Of a DNA stretch of 34,108 nt, positions 11,386-31,098 are shown piece by piece. Within the stretch, counting starts at the first letter, position 1; the number at the start of each line of letters is the position of its first letter. The translations under genes and the position numbers were made by a program. The stretch is from Spirochaetota bacterium (lineage in GTDB: Bacteria; Spirochaetota; Spirochaetia; Treponematales; UBA12059): the NCBI GenBank assembly GCA_018262985.1, contig JADFDI010000016.1, positions 1 through 34,108 of the forward strand, written 5' to 3'. The notes beneath the pieces are model-generated. The model was not told the DNA's origin. It saw nothing but the letters and a program-made list of their open reading frames with translations, and did no database searches.

Positions 11386-12585
11386 CTAGTCGGCGGAAAG
11401 GCCGACGGCGCGCGCGGCGGTCCGGACGTCCTTGAGGCCCGAGCCCGTGGCGAGCACCACGGGCAGGGCGTCGGACGGCAGGTCCTTCGCGGCGCGGAGG
11501 TACGCGGCCATGGCGGCCGCGCTCGAGGGTTCCATGAAGACGCCCGCCTTCGAGGCGGCGAGGCGCTGCGCGGCGAGGATTTCCGCGTCCGGCGCGGCGA
11601 GGGCCCGGCCCGCGTGGTGCTGCAGCTTTTTCAGGGCGAGGATGCCGGCGCGCGGGGCGTCGACCGCGATCGAGTCGGCCGCCGTGTCCGAGGGGACCGG
11701 TTCCCCGAAACTCCCGTCGCGGAGGGCGCGGAAGATGGCGGACGAGCCCTCCGCCTGGCAGGCCCAGACGGTCGGCACCCGGTCGAGGCGGCCGAGGCGC
11801 ACGAGGTCCTCGAAGCCCTTGTAGACGCCGCAGAGTATCGCGCCGTCGCCCGTGGGCACGAAGACGTGGAGCCGCGCCCCGGCGGCCTTCTTCCCCGCGC
11901 CGAAGGCCTCGGCCAGTTCGAGCTCCTCGAGGAGCTCGAAGGCGACGGTCTTCTTCCCTTCGACGGTGAGCGGGTTGTAGGCGGTGTTGCGCGACATGAC
12001 GCGCGAGGCCCGCACGGGGTCGAGCGAGTATTCGAGGCTCCTCTCGTAGGCGAGGTCGTAGCTGCCGTCGACGGGGACGAGCGTCGCGCCGTACTGCAGC
12101 ACCTGGACGCGCTTGGCGACCGGGGCTTTCGCGGGTACGAAGACCGTCACCTGGAGGCCGGCGGCGGCGCCCATGCAGGACATGGAGCTCGCCGCGTTGC
12201 CGGTGCTCGCGAGCACGATCTCCCCGATGCCTTCGCGCTTCGCGAAGGCCGCCACGAGGGCGCTCGCGCGGTCCTTGAAGGAGCCCGAAGGCTCGGCGCC
12301 GTCGTCCTTGAGGAAGAGCGCGCCCACGCCGAGCTCGGCGGCGAGGCGGGGGGCGGCGCGGAGCGGCGTGTTCCCCGCCGCGATCGGCGGGAACCATTTC
12401 GCCTCGACCGGAAGCGGCACGCGCTCAGCGGGCGCCTCGTCTTCCCACACGGCCTCGAGGATGCCCTCGAGCGGCCGCGCGCTTTTCGTTTTCGGCCCGC
12501 ACTCGGGACAGAGGTAGCGGCCCTTTTCGAGCGGGAAGAGCTTGCCGCAGGACGAGCACGCGTAGACCCATTTCGTCGGATTCAT
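11386..12585 (-). CDS. Threonine-synthase-like PLP enzyme with N-terminal zinc ribbon
   Basis: A 399-residue protein. A zinc ribbon (Cys10, 13, 26, 29) leads into a fold-type II PLP domain with LKDDGAEPSGSFKDRAS (PLP Lys104), LASTGNAASSMS and GDGAILCGVYKGF, followed by PSSAAAMAAYL. This architecture is that of short threonine synthases of the YcxK/ThrC type. Its position in a purine-degradation operon, far from homoserine genes, argues for another role: elimination or replacement on a beta-amino or ureido amino acid. The ATG at 12585 is chosen because the zinc ribbon starts nine residues later. It lies 33 bases before the next PLP gene, so the two may act together. True threonine synthase remains possible. 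Confidence 0.8.
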   Translation of the reverse strand: MNPTKWVYACSSCGKLFPLEKGRYLCPECGPKTKSARPLEGILEAVWEDEAPAERVPLPVEAKWFPPIAAGNTPLRAAPRLAAELGVGALFLKDDGAEPSGSFKDRASALVAAFAKREGIGEIVLASTGNAASSMSCMGAAAGLQVTVFVPAKAPVAKRVQVLQYGATLVPVDGSYDLAYERSLEYSLDPVRASRVMSRNTAYNPLTVEGKKTVAFELLEELELAEAFGAGKKAAGARLHVFVPTGDGAILCGVYKGFEDLVRLGRLDRVPTVWACQAEGSSAIFRALRDGSFGEPVPSDTAADSIAVDAPRAGILALKKLQHHAGRALAAPDAEILAAQRLAASKAGVFMEPSSAAAMAAYLRAAKDLPSDALPVVLATGSGLKDVRTAARAVGLSAD

Positions 12586-22141: not shown

Positions 22142-23601
22142 GCCAGGAGCTCCTCGGCGGTGAAGGCGCCGGGGAAGAGCCGGAGGGCGTGGGCGGCGAG
22201 GAGCCGGCCGAGGACGCGCTTCCGGAACTCCGCGGAGCCGCGCACGTCGGAGATGGGCGCCACCTCGTCGCGGGCTGCCAGCATGGCCTCGCGGAAGGCG
22301 GCGACTGAAGGCTTCCGGCCCTCGAGCGCGGCGGCGGCCTTGCGGAGCCGCAGGGGCACCGGTCCCACGCCGCCGGCCGAGACGATGACGCCGCGCATCG
22401 CGCCGCCAGAGTCGACCGCGAGCGAGAGCGCGGTGTTGACCGCCGCGATGTCGAGCCGCTCTCGGCGGGCGGCCTTCTCGAAGGAGAACGCGCGCGGCGC
22501 GGCGGGCAGCAGGATGGTCTCGATGATGGCGTCCCCGTCGAGGGCGGTTTTCTTGTAGCCGAGGAAGAAGTCCGCGAGCGGGAGCTCGCGCGCTCCCGAC
22601 GCTCCCGAGAGGACGAGCCGGGCGTCCAGCGCGAGCAGCATGGCCGTCAGGTCGGCCACGGGCGAGGCGTTGGCGACGTTGCCCGCCAGGGTCGCGCGCG
22701 CGCGGATGTGAGGGCTCGCGACGAGGACCTCGAAGCGCTCGATGCCGGGGGCGATGGCGCGCACCGCTTTCGACGCGAAGAAGTCCGCAACCGTGACGCC
22801 GGCGCCGAGGGCCACGGTCGCGCCTTCGCCCGAGCCGCGCGTCTCGATGAAGCGCAGCTCCGGATCGCGGCCGACGAAGCGGGGCGAAAGACCGGGCGCG
22901 GGGTCGGTGTTGCGGACGTACCAGTCGGTCCCGCCACCTAATGGTGGCGAGCCGCCTAATGGTGGCGAGCCGCCTAATGGTGGCGAGCCGCCCGGGCCGC
23001 CCGCGGAGGCGGGTTCGGGCAAATCCTGCATGGTGGCCGCCAGGGCCGGGGGAATGACGCCGCGCGCCGCCAGGGCCGCGAGCCGGGTCGGAAAGTCGAG
23101 GGGCAGGCCGGAGAAGTCGGAGGAAAGCGCGCGCGCGGCGCGGCCTATGCTCGCGTAGCCCGTGCAGCGGCAGAGGTTGCCCTCGACGGAAGCCACCGCG
23201 GCGGCCTCGTCGCGCGGACCCTCGGCCAGCAGGAAGTGCGAAAGCGCCACCGCGACGCCCGGGGAGCAGAAGCCGCACTGGCTCGCGTTCTCGACGTGGA
23301 GGGCCTTCATGACGGGCGTCGGGCCCTCGCCGGCGAGTCCCTCGACGGTGACGAGGGCGCGGCCGTCCAGCTCGCCGAGGGCCAGCAGGCAGGTGGCCGC
23401 GCTCACCCACTCGATGCCGGTGCCTTCCAGGTTCCGGCGCCCGAGCAGGGCCAGGCAGGCCCCGCAGTCGCCCTCGCGGCAACCTTCGCGCGTCCCGGTA
23501 AGGCCCGCCTCCTCGCGCAGCCAGTCGAGGACGGGCTGTTCTTCCCTTCCTTCGATCTCGACCAGCTTGCCGTTCAGGCGGAACCTCAGGGACTTGAGCA
23601 C
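22138..23601 (-). CDS. xdhA: Xanthine dehydrogenase Fe-S/FAD subunit
   Basis: 487 residues: two 2Fe-2S domains (Cys41, 46, 49, 71 and Cys109, 112, 144, 146), then the FAD domain with GGGTDWYV (223 on), RARATLAGNVANASPVADL and PLADFFLGYKKT, and the CODH-type C-terminal domain. It takes electrons from the Mo subunit XdhB and delivers them to NAD+ or another acceptor. The start is GTG at 23601, with GGAGG 7 bases upstream. Oddity: a triple 18-bp repeat encodes GGSPPL three times (about 204-221) exactly where the first FAD-domain strand before GGTD normally lies. First gene of the long operon, with a good promoter in front. Confidence 0.93.
   Translation of the reverse strand: MLKSLRFRLNGKLVEIEGREEQPVLDWLREEAGLTGTREGCREGDCGACLALLGRRNLEGTGIEWVSAATCLLALGELDGRALVTVEGLAGEGPTPVMKALHVENASQCGFCSPGVAVALSHFLLAEGPRDEAAAVASVEGNLCRCTGYASIGRAARALSSDFSGLPLDFPTRLAALAARGVIPPALAATMQDLPEPASAGGPGGSPPLGGSPPLGGSPPLGGGTDWYVRNTDPAPGLSPRFVGRDPELRFIETRGSGEGATVALGAGVTVADFFASKAVRAIAPGIERFEVLVASPHIRARATLAGNVANASPVADLTAMLLALDARLVLSGASGARELPLADFFLGYKKTALDGDAIIETILLPAAPRAFSFEKAARRERLDIAAVNTALSLAVDSGGAMRGVIVSAGGVGPVPLRLRKAAAALEGRKPSVAAFREAMLAARDEVAPISDVRGSAEFRKRVLGRLLAAHALRLFPGAFTAEELLA
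22933..22986. repeat. Triplicated 18-bp in-frame repeat inside xdhA
   Basis: Three tandem units of GCCGCCTAATGGTGGCGA (first unit has one change, A for G at its fourth base). Each unit encodes Gly-Gly-Ser-Pro-Pro-Leu on the minus strand. Each also forms a mini-hairpin, CCACC-TAAT-GGTGG in the first unit. Being 18 bp, gain or loss of units keeps the frame. Confidence 0.95.
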
Positions 23602-23674: not shown

Positions 23675-25396
23675 TCAGTCGACCCAGAGCCCGACCCGTT
23701 CGAAGCGCTCCACGTCCACGAGGCCGCGGTCGGTGATCTTGAGCTTCGGGATGACCGGCAGGGCCATGAAGGCGAGCGTCATGAGAGGCTCGGAGTTCGC
23801 GAAGAGCTCCGCGGCGAAGAGCGCCGAGAAGCGGTCGAGCGCTGCCACCACCTCTTCCGCCGCGCGGTCCGACATGAGCCCGCCGATGGGCAGGGGCAGC
23901 TCCGCCAGCACCTCGTCGCCGAGGGCGGCCACGAAGCCGCCGCCGATCTTGTTGAGGCGCTTGGCCGCCTTGAAGATCGACTCGTCGTCCATGCCCGCCA
24001 CGATCATGTTGTGCGAGTCGTGGCTGACGGTGGAGCCGATGGCGCCGCGCTTCATGCCGAGGCCGCTCAGGTAGCCCTTGCCGATGTTGCCCGAGCCGCG
24101 GTGCCGCTCGATGACGTAGACGCGCGCCAGATCGCGCTCCGCGTCGCTCGCGCAGTAGCCGTCGGGGCCGACGGGCGGCTCGACGACGAGCTCGTTCGTG
24201 ACCAGGCTGCCTTCGGCGCAGGTGATGGCCCGGACGCGGCGGCCTTCCCTCGGGATGCGGAAGTCCTCCGCCTTGAGCCACTTGATGTTGACCGAGTCGC
24301 GGACCGCCACGGGCCTCGGCTCGATGGCCGCGACCATGCGGCCGTCGCGCGCCGCGAGGCGCCCGTCCTTCCAGACCGCCGCTACCTTGAAGGAGGATAG
24401 ATCCTCGAGCAGCACGAGGTCCGCGCGCTTCCCGGGCGCCACCGCGCCGCGGTCGCGGAGCCCGTAGTGCTCGGCGGGCACGAGGCTGGCCATGGCCAGG
24501 GCGTCCAGCGGATCGACCCCTTTGGCCACGAGGAGGCGCAGCATGCGGTCGACGTGGCCCTCGCTCGCGAGGTCGTCTGGGTGGCGGTCGTCGGAGCAGA
24601 GCATGAAGCGCCGCGCGTTCCGCGCCGTTACGGCGGACGCCAGGTTCTCCAGGTCGCGCGCCGCCGAGCCTTCGCGCAGCATTACGCGCATGCCCTTCGA
24701 CACCTTCTCGAGCGCCTCTTCCGCCGTGGTCGACTCGTGGTCGGAGAGTATGCCCGCGGCGATGTAGGCCGAGAGGTCCTTGCCCGAGAGGCCCGGCGCG
24801 TGGCCGTCGATGGCCTTGCCCGCCTCGCGGAAGAGCGCCACCTTGTCGAGCAGGATGCGGTCGCGCGCGAGCACCCCGGGGAAGTTCATCACCTCCCCGA
24901 GGCCCAGGACGCGCGGGTCGCGGAGCCAGGGGTGCATGTCCGCGGCGTAGATGGCCGCTCCCGCCGTGTCGAAGTCCGTGGCCGGCACGCAGGAGGGCGC
25001 CACCAGGAACACGTCCACCGGCAGGCCCTCGCTGGCGCGGAGCATATAGCTCATGCCGTCGTAGCCGAGCACGTTGGCTATCTCGTGGGGGTCGGCGACC
25101 ACGCTCGTGGTGCCGCGCGGGCACACGAGGCGCGCGTACTCCGCGGGCGAGAGCAGGCTGCTTTCTATATGGACGTGCGCGTCGGTGAAGCCGGGCGCTA
25201 GCACGCGGCCGGCCGCGTCGAAGGTCTCCCGCGCGCGGAGTCCGTCGTTCACGCCCACCACCGCGCCGCCCGCGATCGACACGGTCGCGCCCTCGACGAG
25301 CACGCCCCGGTAGAGGTCGGCCACGCGCGCGCCCACGATGTTCAGGTCGCAGTCGGCGTGTCCCGCCGCCGCCTCGATGTGTCGCGCTCCGTTCAT
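23675..25396 (-). CDS. ade: Adenine deaminase
   Basis: A 573-residue two-domain adenine deaminase (E. coli Ade 588). Diagnostic blocks are APGFTDAHVHIESSLLSPAEYARLVCPRGTTSVVADPHEIANVLG, the GEVMNFPGVL segment, IDGHAPGLSG, SDHESTT, LCSDDRHPDDL and the C-terminal TVSHDSHNMIVAG. It converts adenine to hypoxanthine and ammonia with a di-metal (Fe or Mn) centre, supplying XdhAB. GGAGG lies 8 bases before the ATG at 25396. It has its own promoter, divergent from the permease gene, and ends 73 bases before xdhA, whose promoter lies in that gap. Read-through into the operon is possible since no terminator is visible. Confidence 0.96.
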   Translation of the reverse strand: MNGARHIEAAAGHADCDLNIVGARVADLYRGVLVEGATVSIAGGAVVGVNDGLRARETFDAAGRVLAPGFTDAHVHIESSLLSPAEYARLVCPRGTTSVVADPHEIANVLGYDGMSYMLRASEGLPVDVFLVAPSCVPATDFDTAGAAIYAADMHPWLRDPRVLGLGEVMNFPGVLARDRILLDKVALFREAGKAIDGHAPGLSGKDLSAYIAAGILSDHESTTAEEALEKVSKGMRVMLREGSAARDLENLASAVTARNARRFMLCSDDRHPDDLASEGHVDRMLRLLVAKGVDPLDALAMASLVPAEHYGLRDRGAVAPGKRADLVLLEDLSSFKVAAVWKDGRLAARDGRMVAAIEPRPVAVRDSVNIKWLKAEDFRIPREGRRVRAITCAEGSLVTNELVVEPPVGPDGYCASDAERDLARVYVIERHRGSGNIGKGYLSGLGMKRGAIGSTVSHDSHNMIVAGMDDESIFKAAKRLNKIGGGFVAALGDEVLAELPLPIGGLMSDRAAEEVVAALDRFSALFAAELFANSEPLMTLAFMALPVIPKLKITDRGLVDVERFERVGLWVD

Positions 25397-25428: not shown

Positions 25429-25457
25429 ATGATAGGCTAGGAAGCCCGAAGGCGCAA
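25429..25457 (-). promoter_or_regulatory. Sigma70-like promoter of adenine deaminase
   Basis: On the minus strand: -35 TTGCGC (25452-25457), 17-base spacer, -10 TATCAT (25429-25434). The predicted 5' leader is about 25 bases and carries the GGAGG site. Confidence 0.7.
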
Positions 25458-25538
25458 CGCGAAACTCGCCGGGTCGCGCGGGGCCGCCCGGCGCTGGATG
25501 CCTCCGCCCTGCCGGAACCGCCACCGGGACCCCGCGCC

Positions 25539-25554
25539 CCGCCACCGGTGGCGG
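25539..25554. promoter_or_regulatory. Perfect 16-bp palindrome A in the ade-permease control region
   Basis: CCGCCACCGGTGGCGG is identical to its reverse complement. It lies between the two divergent promoters, about 28 bases upstream of the permease -35 box. A dimeric repressor or activator site is the likely meaning; the regulator is not encoded in this window. Confidence 0.55.
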
Positions 25555-25563
25555 AATCGCCGC

Positions 25564-25579
25564 TTTTCCCGCGGGAAAA
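25564..25579. promoter_or_regulatory. Perfect 16-bp palindrome B next to the permease -35 box
   Basis: TTTTCCCGCGGGAAAA is identical to its reverse complement and ends two bases before the permease -35 hexamer. It has the same geometry as the AT-rich inverted repeat before the xdhA promoter but a different sequence. Probable operator or activator site. Confidence 0.6.
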
Positions 25580-25581
25580 CG

Positions 25582-25610
25582 TTGCGCGCTCGCCCGACGC
25601 GGTTTAGACT
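25582..25610 (+). promoter_or_regulatory. Sigma70-like promoter of the purine permease
   Basis: -35 TTGCGC (25582-25587), 17-base spacer, -10 TAGACT (25605-25610). It implies a leader of roughly 88 bases before the GTG start. That leader shows no purine-riboswitch pattern that I can recognise. Confidence 0.7.
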
Positions 25611-25704
25611 GCCCGGAACCGCCCGCTCCTCCGGATCCCGCTGGGCTCCCCGGCGCGGACGGATCCAACCAGTTTCCCTACCGGCACCGACAAGGAGGCA
25701 GTCA

Positions 25705-27000
25705 GTGGAGAAGTTCTTCAAGCTCAAGGAAAACGGGACCACGGTCAAGACCGAGATCCTCGCGGGCATCACGACGTTCATGACGATGGCCTACATCCTG
25801 GCCGTCAACCCCGGCATCCTCTCCGCCACCGGCATGGACAAGGGCGCGCTCTTCACGGCGACGGCGCTGTCCTCGCTCGCGGCCACGCTCGTCATGGCCC
25901 TCCTGGCCAACCTGCCCTTCGCGCTCGCGCCGGGCATGGGCCTCAACGCCTTCTTCGCCTTCTCCGTGGTCCTCGGCATGGGCTACAGCTGGCAGACGGC
26001 GCTGACCGCGGTCTTCGTGGAAGGCATCATCTTCCTCCTCCTCTCGCTCTTCAACGTGCGCGAGGCCATCGTCAAGAGCATCCCGCTCAACCTGAAGCGC
26101 GCGCTCTCGGTCGGCATCGGCCTGTTCATCGCCTTCATCGGCCTCCAGAACGCCGGCATCATCGTCAACAACGACGCGGTGCTGGTCGGGCTCGGCGCCG
26201 TCACCAAGGGACCGGCCCTCGTCGCCCTCATCGGCCTCGTCGTCACCGGCGCGCTGCTCGCGTTCAAGGTCAAGGGCGCCCTGCTCATCGGCATCCTCGC
26301 GACCACCGTCGTGGGCATCCCCTTCGGCGTCACCAACCTCGAGGGCTTCACCTTCGTGTCGATGCCGGCCAGCCTCGCGCCCATCTTCTGGAAGTTCGAC
26401 TTCTCGAAGATCTTCACGGGCGAAGTGCTCATCGTCATGTTCAGCTTCCTGGCCGTCGACATGTTCGACACCATCGGCACCCTCGTCGGCGTGTCGACCA
26501 AGGCCGGCATGCTGACCAAGGACGGCCAGGTGCCGCGCGCCAAGCAGGCCCTGATCGCCGACGCCGTCGGCACCACCTTCGGCGCCATCGTCGGAACCTC
26601 GACCGTGACCACCTACGTCGAGAGCGCCTCCGGCGTCGAGGAAGGCGGCCGCACGGGCCTCACCGCCCTGACCACCGCGATCCTCTTCGGCCTCGCGCTC
26701 TTCCTCTCGCCGGTGTTCCTGGTCATCCCGGGCGCCGCCACCGCCCCGGCCCTGATCATCGTCGGCCTCTTCATGATGTCCCCCATCAAGGAGATCGACT
26801 TCGACGACTGGACCGAGGCGATACCGGCCTTCCTGGCCATCATCGCCATGCCGCTGACCTACAGCATCGCCAACGGCATCGTGTTCGGCATCCTCGGCTA
26901 CGTCGTGCTCAAGACCGTCACCGGCAAGGTCAAGCAGGTCCCGATCGTCACCTGGATCGTCGCGGCCTTCTTCGTCCTCAAGTTCGTCTTCGGATTCTGA
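25705..27000 (+). CDS. AzgA-type NCS2 purine-base permease
   Basis: A 431-residue polytopic membrane protein with about 12-14 hydrophobic segments. It belongs to the AzgA branch of nucleobase-cation symporter 2 (E. coli AdeP/AdeQ/GhxP relatives). Signature stretches are EILAGITTFMTMAYILAVNP at the N-terminus, ALAPGMGLNAFFAFSVV, FLAVDMFDTIGTLVGVS and GTSTVTTYVESASGVEEGGRTGL. It imports adenine, guanine or hypoxanthine with protons, feeding the divergent adenine deaminase and the xanthine dehydrogenase operon. The start is GTG at 25705: a perfect AAGGAGG lies 6 bases before it and family proteins begin at this point. A strong terminator follows. Confidence 0.95.
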   Translation: MEKFFKLKENGTTVKTEILAGITTFMTMAYILAVNPGILSATGMDKGALFTATALSSLAATLVMALLANLPFALAPGMGLNAFFAFSVVLGMGYSWQTALTAVFVEGIIFLLLSLFNVREAIVKSIPLNLKRALSVGIGLFIAFIGLQNAGIIVNNDAVLVGLGAVTKGPALVALIGLVVTGALLAFKVKGALLIGILATTVVGIPFGVTNLEGFTFVSMPASLAPIFWKFDFSKIFTGEVLIVMFSFLAVDMFDTIGTLVGVSTKAGMLTKDGQVPRAKQALIADAVGTTFGAIVGTSTVTTYVESASGVEEGGRTGLTALTTAILFGLALFLSPVFLVIPGAATAPALIIVGLFMMSPIKEIDFDDWTEAIPAFLAIIAMPLTYSIANGIVFGILGYVVLKTVTGKVKQVPIVTWIVAAFFVLKFVFGF

Positions 27001-29487: not shown

Positions 29488-31038
29488 TTATTCGGTGAGG
29501 CTGAGGAGGCCGATCAGCTCGGGATAGTCGATGAAGGGATTGCGGTTGCCCTGCCAGGCCTGGACCGCGTTGTTGCGCGCGATTTCCTTGGCGCTGACCG
29601 GGTCGGCGGAGGCCCAGGAGCGGAGCATGGCGTCGTACCAGGGCAGCAGCTTGGCGCCTGAGGCCGCCCAGGCGCAGGAGAGGAACTTCGAGTCGCCATA
29701 GTAGCGGAGCGCCTGGTAGAAGTGCATGCGCGCGTGGTCGCCCTTGTAGAACGAGATCGGTTCGAACACGGTGCCCGTGTAGCCGAGCCCCGTGCGCGCG
29801 GAACCGAGCTTTGAGCCGTTCAGGCTGGTCCAGGTGGCGGTGCCGACTTCGCCGTAGGAATAGTTGGAGCGGCGGTTGTTGACGATCTTGTCGGTGGGGG
29901 TGAGCGAATGGCCGTCGGCGTAGGCGGCGGCGTTCGCGGTGCCGCCGAAGGTGGAGTTCGGCCAGGTGTGCTCGCGGTTGTAGTACTCGCCCTCGACGGA
30001 GCCGGAGCCCGTGTCCTGGTCGACCACGAAGGTGAACCAGTACGCGGCGCTCGTGCCGTCGCTCGAGGTGCTCGAGTACATGTCCCAGACCTTGCCGTTC
30101 GGCGCGACGTCGGTCGACTGGTACATGGTCCAGAGACCCGTGTAGGTCTTGATGGTGTGCGTTGATGTGACGATGTTCTTGAGCGCCGTCTTGAGGGCCG
30201 AGCCCGAGAGGCCGTAGGCGCTCCGGTAGTAGTCGCGGACGGCGACCGGCAGCGAGAGGTTTTCGGTGAAGGTGCCGCCTGAGGAGCTCGCGGTCCATTT
30301 CGCGTAGAGCGTGACGTTGGCCGAACCCATGGTGAAGGTTGCGCCGGGGGCGTAGGTGGTGCCCGTGCCCGTGGCGTTGGTGTTCCAGCCGGAGAAGAGG
30401 TAGCCGGTCTTGGCGAGGTTGCCCGTGTTCAGCTTGGTGGTGACCGTGGCGCCGGAGGCGTAGGTCGCGGTGTCGACCGGCACGGTGCCCGAGGTGGCGC
30501 CGTTGGCGTTGTACGTCACCGAGTAGGCGGTCGTGGCGGTAGGACCGGTGACGGAGATGGAGTAGCCGAGGTTCGAGCCCTTGGCCCCGCCGTAGGAATA
30601 GCACTTGACCGTATAGGTCTTGGTGAGGGGAGCGGTGAAGGAGATTCTCGAGCCGTAGTCGCTCGTCGCCTTGTCGTCGTTGTAGGCCTTCTGGGTCGAG
30701 CCGTCGTAGACCGTGAGCGTGGTGTCGGTGTAGCCGGACACGAAGCTCTCGATGACGTAGACCTTGCCCGCGGTGGCGGCGAACGAGTACCAGTCGTAGG
30801 CGTCGTCGTAGAAGTTGTGTTCCTGGAGCGCGCCCGTCGTGGCGATGGCCTTGGCGTTGCTCTGGTAGTCGTCCTGCTCGTAGGCGTCGGGGGCCGTCAG
30901 GCTGATGGCGCGCGACTCGGGCCGCGCGAGGGCGGGCTTGGCGCCTTCCGCGACTTCGCCGAACGCGGCGAGGGTCGGGTTGGCGCACGAGGCGAGCGCC
31001 ACTACGAGGGCGAGCGCGATGACGAGGGTCTTCTTCAC
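29488..31038 (-). CDS. Endonuclease I lipoprotein with PPC-like and InlB-repeat domains
   Basis: A 516-residue predicted lipoprotein. A signal peptide ends at VVALASC (Cys18). Residues about 48-155 are a pre-peptidase C-terminal-like beta sandwich (DAYEQDDYQSNA, DWYSFAATAGKVYVI). About 160-240 is one Listeria-Bacteroides (InlB B) repeat (YSVTYNANGATSG ... GYLFSGWNTNATGTGTTYAPG ... VTLYAKWTA). The rest is an endonuclease I domain with NREHTWPNSTFGG, DGHSLTPTDKIVNNRRSNYSYGEVG and HARMHFYQALRYYG. It likely cleaves extracellular DNA or RNA at the cell surface for nutrient recovery. The start is GTG at 31038 because AAAGGAGG lies 8 bases upstream and the signal peptide begins there; an upstream ATG would add an unlikely prefix. 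Confidence 0.9.
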   Translation of the reverse strand: MKKTLVIALALVVALASCANPTLAAFGEVAEGAKPALARPESRAISLTAPDAYEQDDYQSNAKAIATTGALQEHNFYDDAYDWYSFAATAGKVYVIESFVSGYTDTTLTVYDGSTQKAYNDDKATSDYGSRISFTAPLTKTYTVKCYSYGGAKGSNLGYSISVTGPTATTAYSVTYNANGATSGTVPVDTATYASGATVTTKLNTGNLAKTGYLFSGWNTNATGTGTTYAPGATFTMGSANVTLYAKWTASSSGGTFTENLSLPVAVRDYYRSAYGLSGSALKTALKNIVTSTHTIKTYTGLWTMYQSTDVAPNGKVWDMYSSTSSDGTSAAYWFTFVVDQDTGSGSVEGEYYNREHTWPNSTFGGTANAAAYADGHSLTPTDKIVNNRRSNYSYGEVGTATWTSLNGSKLGSARTGLGYTGTVFEPISFYKGDHARMHFYQALRYYGDSKFLSCAWAASGAKLLPWYDAMLRSWASADPVSAKEIARNNAVQAWQGNRNPFIDYPELIGLLSLTE

Positions 31039-31060
31039 TTTTCCTGCCTCCTTTGGCAAG

Positions 31061-31098
31061 GGCCGCCCCAAGCTCCCTGAACGGAGCGAGGGGCGGCC
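31061..31098 (-). promoter_or_regulatory. Stable hairpin in the endonuclease 5' leader
   Basis: Outer stem GGCCGCCCC / GGGGCGGCC (31061-31069 / 31090-31098) and inner stem GCTCC / GGAGC (31072-31076 / 31083-31087), placed between the promoter and the ribosome binding site. It could be an attenuator, an mRNA-stabilising structure or a protein-binding site. Confidence 0.6.

Follow-up and report, generated by a model that had tools for sequence, protein, structure and literature searches.

In the rrnB P1 promoter, UP-element subsites lie at -40 to -60, as given in an excerpt of PMC9655642. Genes for the reductive degradation of uric acid have been described as a set that includes XdhD, YgfK, SsnA, YgeW, and YgeX, again in an excerpt (PMC12507026). 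Our literature search returned no operator for a gene pair of the type formed by an adenine deaminase gene (ade) and a purine permease gene. Sites with which the present locus invites comparison are the Noc-binding site, ATTTCCCGGGAAAT, and parS, TGTTTCACGTGAAACA. Here, we analyze two palindromes in the ade/permease intergenic region of a member of the Spirochaetota. They lie in a window, i.e., the whole stretch of DNA that was analyzed, of 34,108 nucleotides (assembly GCA_018262985.1, contig JADFDI010000016.1).

Results

Palindrome 1 (CCGCCACCGGTGGCGG, positions 25539-25554) and palindrome 2 (TTTTCCCGCGGGAAAA, 25564-25579) read directly as perfectly self-complementary 16-bp sequences and are separated by a spacer of 9 nt (AATCGCCGC, 25555-25563), which is the same in the sister genome G001; none of the three is assigned to a strand. 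An earlier note had reported the pair, and its coordinates (25539-25579) and the self-complementarity are both correct. It had also rightly placed the pair between divergent promoters. The ade gene, with its ATG at 25396, runs on the minus strand (23675-25396; TIGR01178 above cut-off, 593 bits), and a gene for an NCS2-type purine permease of 431 aa, with a GTG start at 25705, runs on the plus strand (25705-27000; PF00860, E 3.9e-47, 161 bits), with 308 bp between the two. On the minus strand, the ade promoter reads TTGCGC at -35 (25452-25457; kept in G001) and, at a spacing of 17 nt, TATCAT at -10 (25429-25434), both read directly. The permease promoter on the plus strand consists of TTGCGC at -35 (25582-25587) and, again at a spacing of 17 nt, TAGACT at -10 (25605-25610), and a Shine-Dalgarno sequence AAGGAGG (25692-25698) could likewise be read directly. 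This TTGCGC-N17-TAGACT core is a poor match to the consensus; it has the TTGnnn, the 17±1 spacing, and the TAnnnT upstream of the start codon that define a sigma-70/sigma-A promoter. The A-run at 25576-25579 (plus strand) forms the right arm of palindrome 2; it lies close upstream of the -35 box, like the A-tract of a UP element, and is kept in orthologues. The claim that palindrome 2 abuts the -35 box is nearly accurate, but two nucleotides, CG, intervene before TTGCGC.

Pfam assignments on the contig comprise a carbamoyltransferase-like protein, molybdopterin dehydrogenase subunits, two PALP enzymes, an amidohydrolase, a Pyr_redox_2/Fer4_20 protein, and a second xanthine-dehydrogenase-type pair, followed by ade. 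Judged by these domains, the contig genes are a predicted purine/uric-acid cluster. No DNA-binding regulator domain was detected by Pfam in ade, in the permease, or in 16 further ORFs of the contig, and a regulator could still be encoded elsewhere in the genome. Two other features of the window were recorded: the motif GGSPPL occurs three times as a short in-frame tandem repeat in the xanthine dehydrogenase small subunit (about 22930-22990, in a minus-strand gene), and the region 29491-31071 combines endonuclease I, a Listeria-Bacteroides repeat domain, and a sub-threshold PPC match, and looks exported.

Within the family, a permease match was found in 18 of 23 genomes and an ade match in 21 of 23, and in 14 of the 18 permease-matched genomes the two genes lie side by side on a single contig, in divergent orientation; as far as these gene calls go, the divergent arrangement is conserved. 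The promoter set comprised 20 sequences from 10 genera, 18 from the family and two (G028, G055) from its sister family. G002 and G008 entered the set through DNA search, and for G013, G014, G028, and G055 the ade start, which falls at the margin of the stretch, was identified visually. Four genomes with a permease lacking a neighbouring divergent ade (G004, G009, G049, and G030) were left out, and G047, with an 18-nt spacer and TATAGT, stands outside the 20 and was used in the 21-promoter dyad test only. All 20 divergent intergenic regions carry TTGC at -35 and TANNCT at -10; the -35 sites were picked by a TTG-17-TA rule (G007 by hand), and the independent evidence in these counts is the extra conserved C's only. 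The invariant bases that depart from the consensus are a C in the fourth position of the -35 box and a C in the fifth position of the -10 box (20/20 each). A run of at least four A's (A4) lies within 10 bases upstream of the -35 box in 15 of the 20 promoters; windows wholly further upstream hold such a run in 0-2 of 20, and a half-overlapping window in 11. On this comparative evidence, what selection keeps over 10 genera of two families is the putative promoter core with its A-run, not the symmetry. A permease-alignment search of genome contigs yielded 80 loci, chiefly from Bacteroidota and Bacillota and none of them congeneric. Among the 33 of these that were checked by looking for TTG-N16-18-TA upstream of the permease, TTGC..-N17-TANNCT was present at one (L099).

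The core is also used elsewhere in the same genome, where TTGCGC-N17-TANNCT occurs 14 times (7 + 7), compared with four times (3 + 1) for the reversed control. At each of the 13 sites besides that of the permease, an ORF of at least 80 codons begins within 70 nt, compared with 1286 of 3000 random positions, and EF-Tu and adenylate kinase are among the genes that follow them. Because only one of these 13 sites has an A4 run just upstream, the A-run is special to the permease promoter. The pattern TTGCG-N18-TANGCT gave 35 matches against 16 in controls, summed over the three congeneric genomes, and 101 against 114, i.e., no enrichment, summed over the other 20 family genomes. The core thus seems to be in general use only in its own genus; elsewhere the weak core looks particular to the permease, because this similar pattern is not enriched in those 20 genomes.

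The genus comparison covered three genomes, i.e., the one under study and its sisters G001 and G002. The earlier note had made its reading depend on conservation in related genomes, and the outcome is divided: the 14-bp core of palindrome 1 (CGCCACCGGTGGCG) is common to two of the three (own and G001), but palindrome 2 is perfect in one of three, the own genome. G001 keeps the palindrome 1 core and the spacer, and one substitution breaks the symmetry of its palindrome 2; G002, with a shorter intergenic region, is missing palindrome 1 and has TTTTTTCGCGCCAAACG at the position of palindrome 2. By this alignment, the perfect symmetry of palindrome 2 is apparently private to its own species. Between the own genome and G001, the block 25541-25610 differs at 2 of 70 positions, compared with 101 of 604 pooled fourfold sites (ade 72/343, permease 29/261; Fisher P 0.0005 for the comparison with the pooled sites and 0.022 for that with the permease sites alone). 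Its left part, from palindrome 1 to the left arm of palindrome 2 (25541-25571), changed at 1 of 31 positions (P 0.028 pooled, 0.14 against permease fourfold sites). In the left flank (25455-25540), 28 of 72 aligned positions differ and 14 more are gapped, and in the 5' leader (25611-25690), 16 of 79 differ, with one gap; the alignment with G001 collapses just where palindrome 1 starts. These substitutions show clear constraint over the entire block 25541-25610, but for the palindromes taken alone they do no more than suggest it.

The earlier note had proposed a search for further copies in the genome, which returned single copies only. Neither palindrome has an exact second copy in the own genome, and near-matches there were at or below control level, i.e., with up to three mismatches to palindrome 2, 12 per strand compared with 14 in the reversed control, and with up to two mismatches to palindrome 1, 7 against 43. 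Both sister genomes showed no clear excess of palindrome copies over reversed-pattern controls (near copies of palindrome 2: 14 against 10 in G001, 2 against 3 in G002). A regulon signal is absent for both palindromes. Of 31 near-match loci, 30 could be classified with a rough gene finder based on GC3, 15 within a predicted gene and 15 outside; at the unclassified locus (L189), the site lies at a contig end, and the finder errs at L005, where a site within the PALP-family ORF of the window was called intergenic. Locus L011, with the 14-bp TCTCCCGCGGGAGA, was rejected as a regulon member; its neighbours are a gene for a tRNA synthetase of the Trp/Tyr type and an ORF that weakly matches an RHS repeat, and it has no purine link. 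In G001, TTTTCGCGCGCGAAAC was seen near the ends of two contigs (L192, L195, L196), one of which holds two copies 67 bp apart, which suggests that it is a repeat that breaks the assembly.

The window contains six perfect palindromes of at least 16 bp, the pair and four others, compared with 2.6 per window in second-order Markov simulations, in which two palindromes within 60 bp of each other arose in 5 of 200 simulated windows. For the 308-bp intergenic region alone (first-order Markov, 4000 simulations), at least two palindromes arose in 0.05%. Thirty further loci of the own genome (90,294 bases, with match sites masked in loci retrieved by palindrome patterns) held seven palindromes of at least 16 bp and zero close pairs. 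The pooled density of the window and these 30 loci gives an expectation of about 2.3 pairs within 60 bp of each other in the whole 3.44-Mb genome. The pair is striking locally and, genome-wide, not improbable. A 24-bp perfect palindrome, TTCGAGCTCCTCGAGGAGCTCGAA, lies at 11917-11940 of the window, within a PALP-family gene.

Perfect dyads of at least 10 bp, up to 32 bases upstream of the -35 box, occur in 5 of the 20 permease promoters (G000, G008 with TTTGTATACAAA, G010, G017, and G028 with TTGTATACAA), compared with 0.53 in shuffles, which ignore relatedness. A genus-weighted test of arm matches over 21 promoters from 11 genera (G047 added) gave P 0.003 at 12 and 0.010 at 11 bases upstream of the -35 box, uncorrected for about 50 centres. 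In G008 (L024, about 1354-1393) and G028 (L028, about 1397-1436), which belong to two other genera, two GTATAC-centred dyads lie about 20 bp apart immediately upstream of the permease -35 box, an arrangement that we take to be reminiscent of a GntR-type operator pair.

Discussion

We favor, with roughly even confidence, the interpretation that the site is a sigma-A promoter with a UP-element-like A-tract upstream of the permease gene. RNA polymerase with the housekeeping sigma factor would read TTGCGC-N17-TAGACT, and the A-run upstream of the -35 box would act as a proximal UP-element subsite for the C-terminal domain of the polymerase alpha subunit, thereby possibly compensating for the weak permease core. 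Palindrome 2 would then consist of an A-run, a T-run, and a GC-rich middle, whose exact mirroring in the own species would be fortuitous and whose perfect symmetry would not be under selection. Palindrome 1 would represent further upstream sequence common to one sister and may be functionless. In its position the A/T tract corresponds to a UP element, as it lies directly upstream of the -35 box, with A4 or longer at 10-1 bases in 15 of the 20 promoters. Other observations fit this interpretation less well. It leaves palindrome 1 unexplained, as well as the 2/70 changes over the whole block 25541-25610 compared with 101/604 at fourfold sites, and a plain UP element does not predict the excess of upstream dyads (5/20 against 0.53 in shuffles). 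Moreover, A4 is short for a UP element, and 5 of the 20 promoters are without one.

The main rival, possible though doubtful in our view, is a pair of lineage-specific operators. A transcription factor that acts as a dimer and may respond to purines would bind palindrome 1 and/or 2 and control the permease, perhaps together with ade, and the operator sequence would have turned over between genera while its position was retained. The earlier note had called this the expected place for a purine-responsive regulator; the location and the conserved divergence of the two genes agree with this, but neither further copies in the genome nor a linked regulator gene on the contig (Pfam) was found. The block 25541-25610 is strongly kept in G001, in an alignment that falls apart just where palindrome 1 starts, which favours operators, yet both sisters have an altered palindrome 2, G002 is without palindrome 1, and the left part of the block (25541-25571), with 1/31 changed, gives P 0.14 against permease fourfold sites (0.028 pooled). 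Similarly placed dyads of other sequences in G008, G028, and G047 (AAATCC-TGC-GGATTT) are consistent with turnover, and so is the better match of arms within a promoter than between promoters at 12 and 11 bases upstream of the -35 box, but with about 50 dyad centres tested, the P of 0.003 fails correction. Two dyads in one 308-bp intergenic region are rare in simulation, whereas near-matches in the genome (12 against 14 for palindrome 2, 7 against 43 for palindrome 1) give no sign of the additional sites that a regulator might occupy. The dyad excess keeps the operator hypothesis alive without establishing it. A more specific proposal, rather unlikely in our estimate, is that uptake, encoded at the head of a cluster for purine and uric-acid breakdown, is controlled in this GC-rich spirochaete lineage by a regulator not yet described, which acts as a dimer and senses purines. 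The dyads that it binds would keep a constant distance from the conserved weak promoter downstream of them, while the operator sequence would have been exchanged between genera, with TTTTCCCGCGGGAAAA in the own genome and GTATAC dyads in G008 and G028 and, less clearly, in G055. If present, an operator would offer a way into studying how the use of purines and uric acid is induced in anaerobic bacteria.

It is quite improbable that both palindromes are random, functionless products of GC-rich DNA beside an ordinary promoter. Chance stays live for the symmetry, because the finding was picked for being striking, and it would account for the four palindromes of at least 16 bp that lie away from the pair among the six in the window, for the expectation of about 2.3 pairs per genome, and for the dispersal of palindrome 1 near-matches within and outside predicted genes. 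However, the A-run of palindrome 2 is kept and promoter-placed, so that at least this arm is not random, and the block that holds palindrome 1 is conserved with G001. A role of the palindromes as RNA hairpins, i.e., terminator or attenuator, is hardly credible. Each could fold as RNA in principle, but both lie upstream of both divergent -35 boxes and therefore outside the transcripts from either inferred promoter, and no gene on either flank is directed towards the site.

The analysis tells the selected part of the site, i.e., the core and A-run across 10 genera, apart from its eye-catching part, the exact symmetry. The present value of the finding is mainly cautionary and local.

With PurR, XdhR, HucR, and PecS, the locus shares the context of purine-use genes, and neither palindrome is known to match an established operator. 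Palindrome 2 has TTTCCC..GGGAAA arms like the Noc-binding site and parS, but was rejected as such a site: two extra central bases set its arms 2 bp further apart than the spacing of TTTC-4-GAAA or TTTCCCGGGAAA, and it is present in one genomic copy as opposed to many. Operators of GntR-type and other dimeric regulators are similar in the 16-bp perfect dyad beside the -35 box, in the pairing of dyads, and in the GTATAC dyads of related genera; unlike these, the dyads here are single copy, have no nearby regulator gene, and do not keep their symmetry within the genus. A UP element of the rrnB P1 type corresponds in the A-run adjoining the -35 box, the T-run further up, and the weak core hexamers, whereas at the present site the A-run has four A's only, the T-run lies somewhat farther from the core than it does in the consensus, and binding of the alpha C-terminal domain is putative. 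The gene neighbourhood resembles the reductive uric-acid degradation cluster as far as an excerpt of PMC12507026 portrays it, with YgeW-, YgeX-, SsnA-, YgfK-, and XdhD-like domains in the window at 2342-25396 and ade and the permease at its head.
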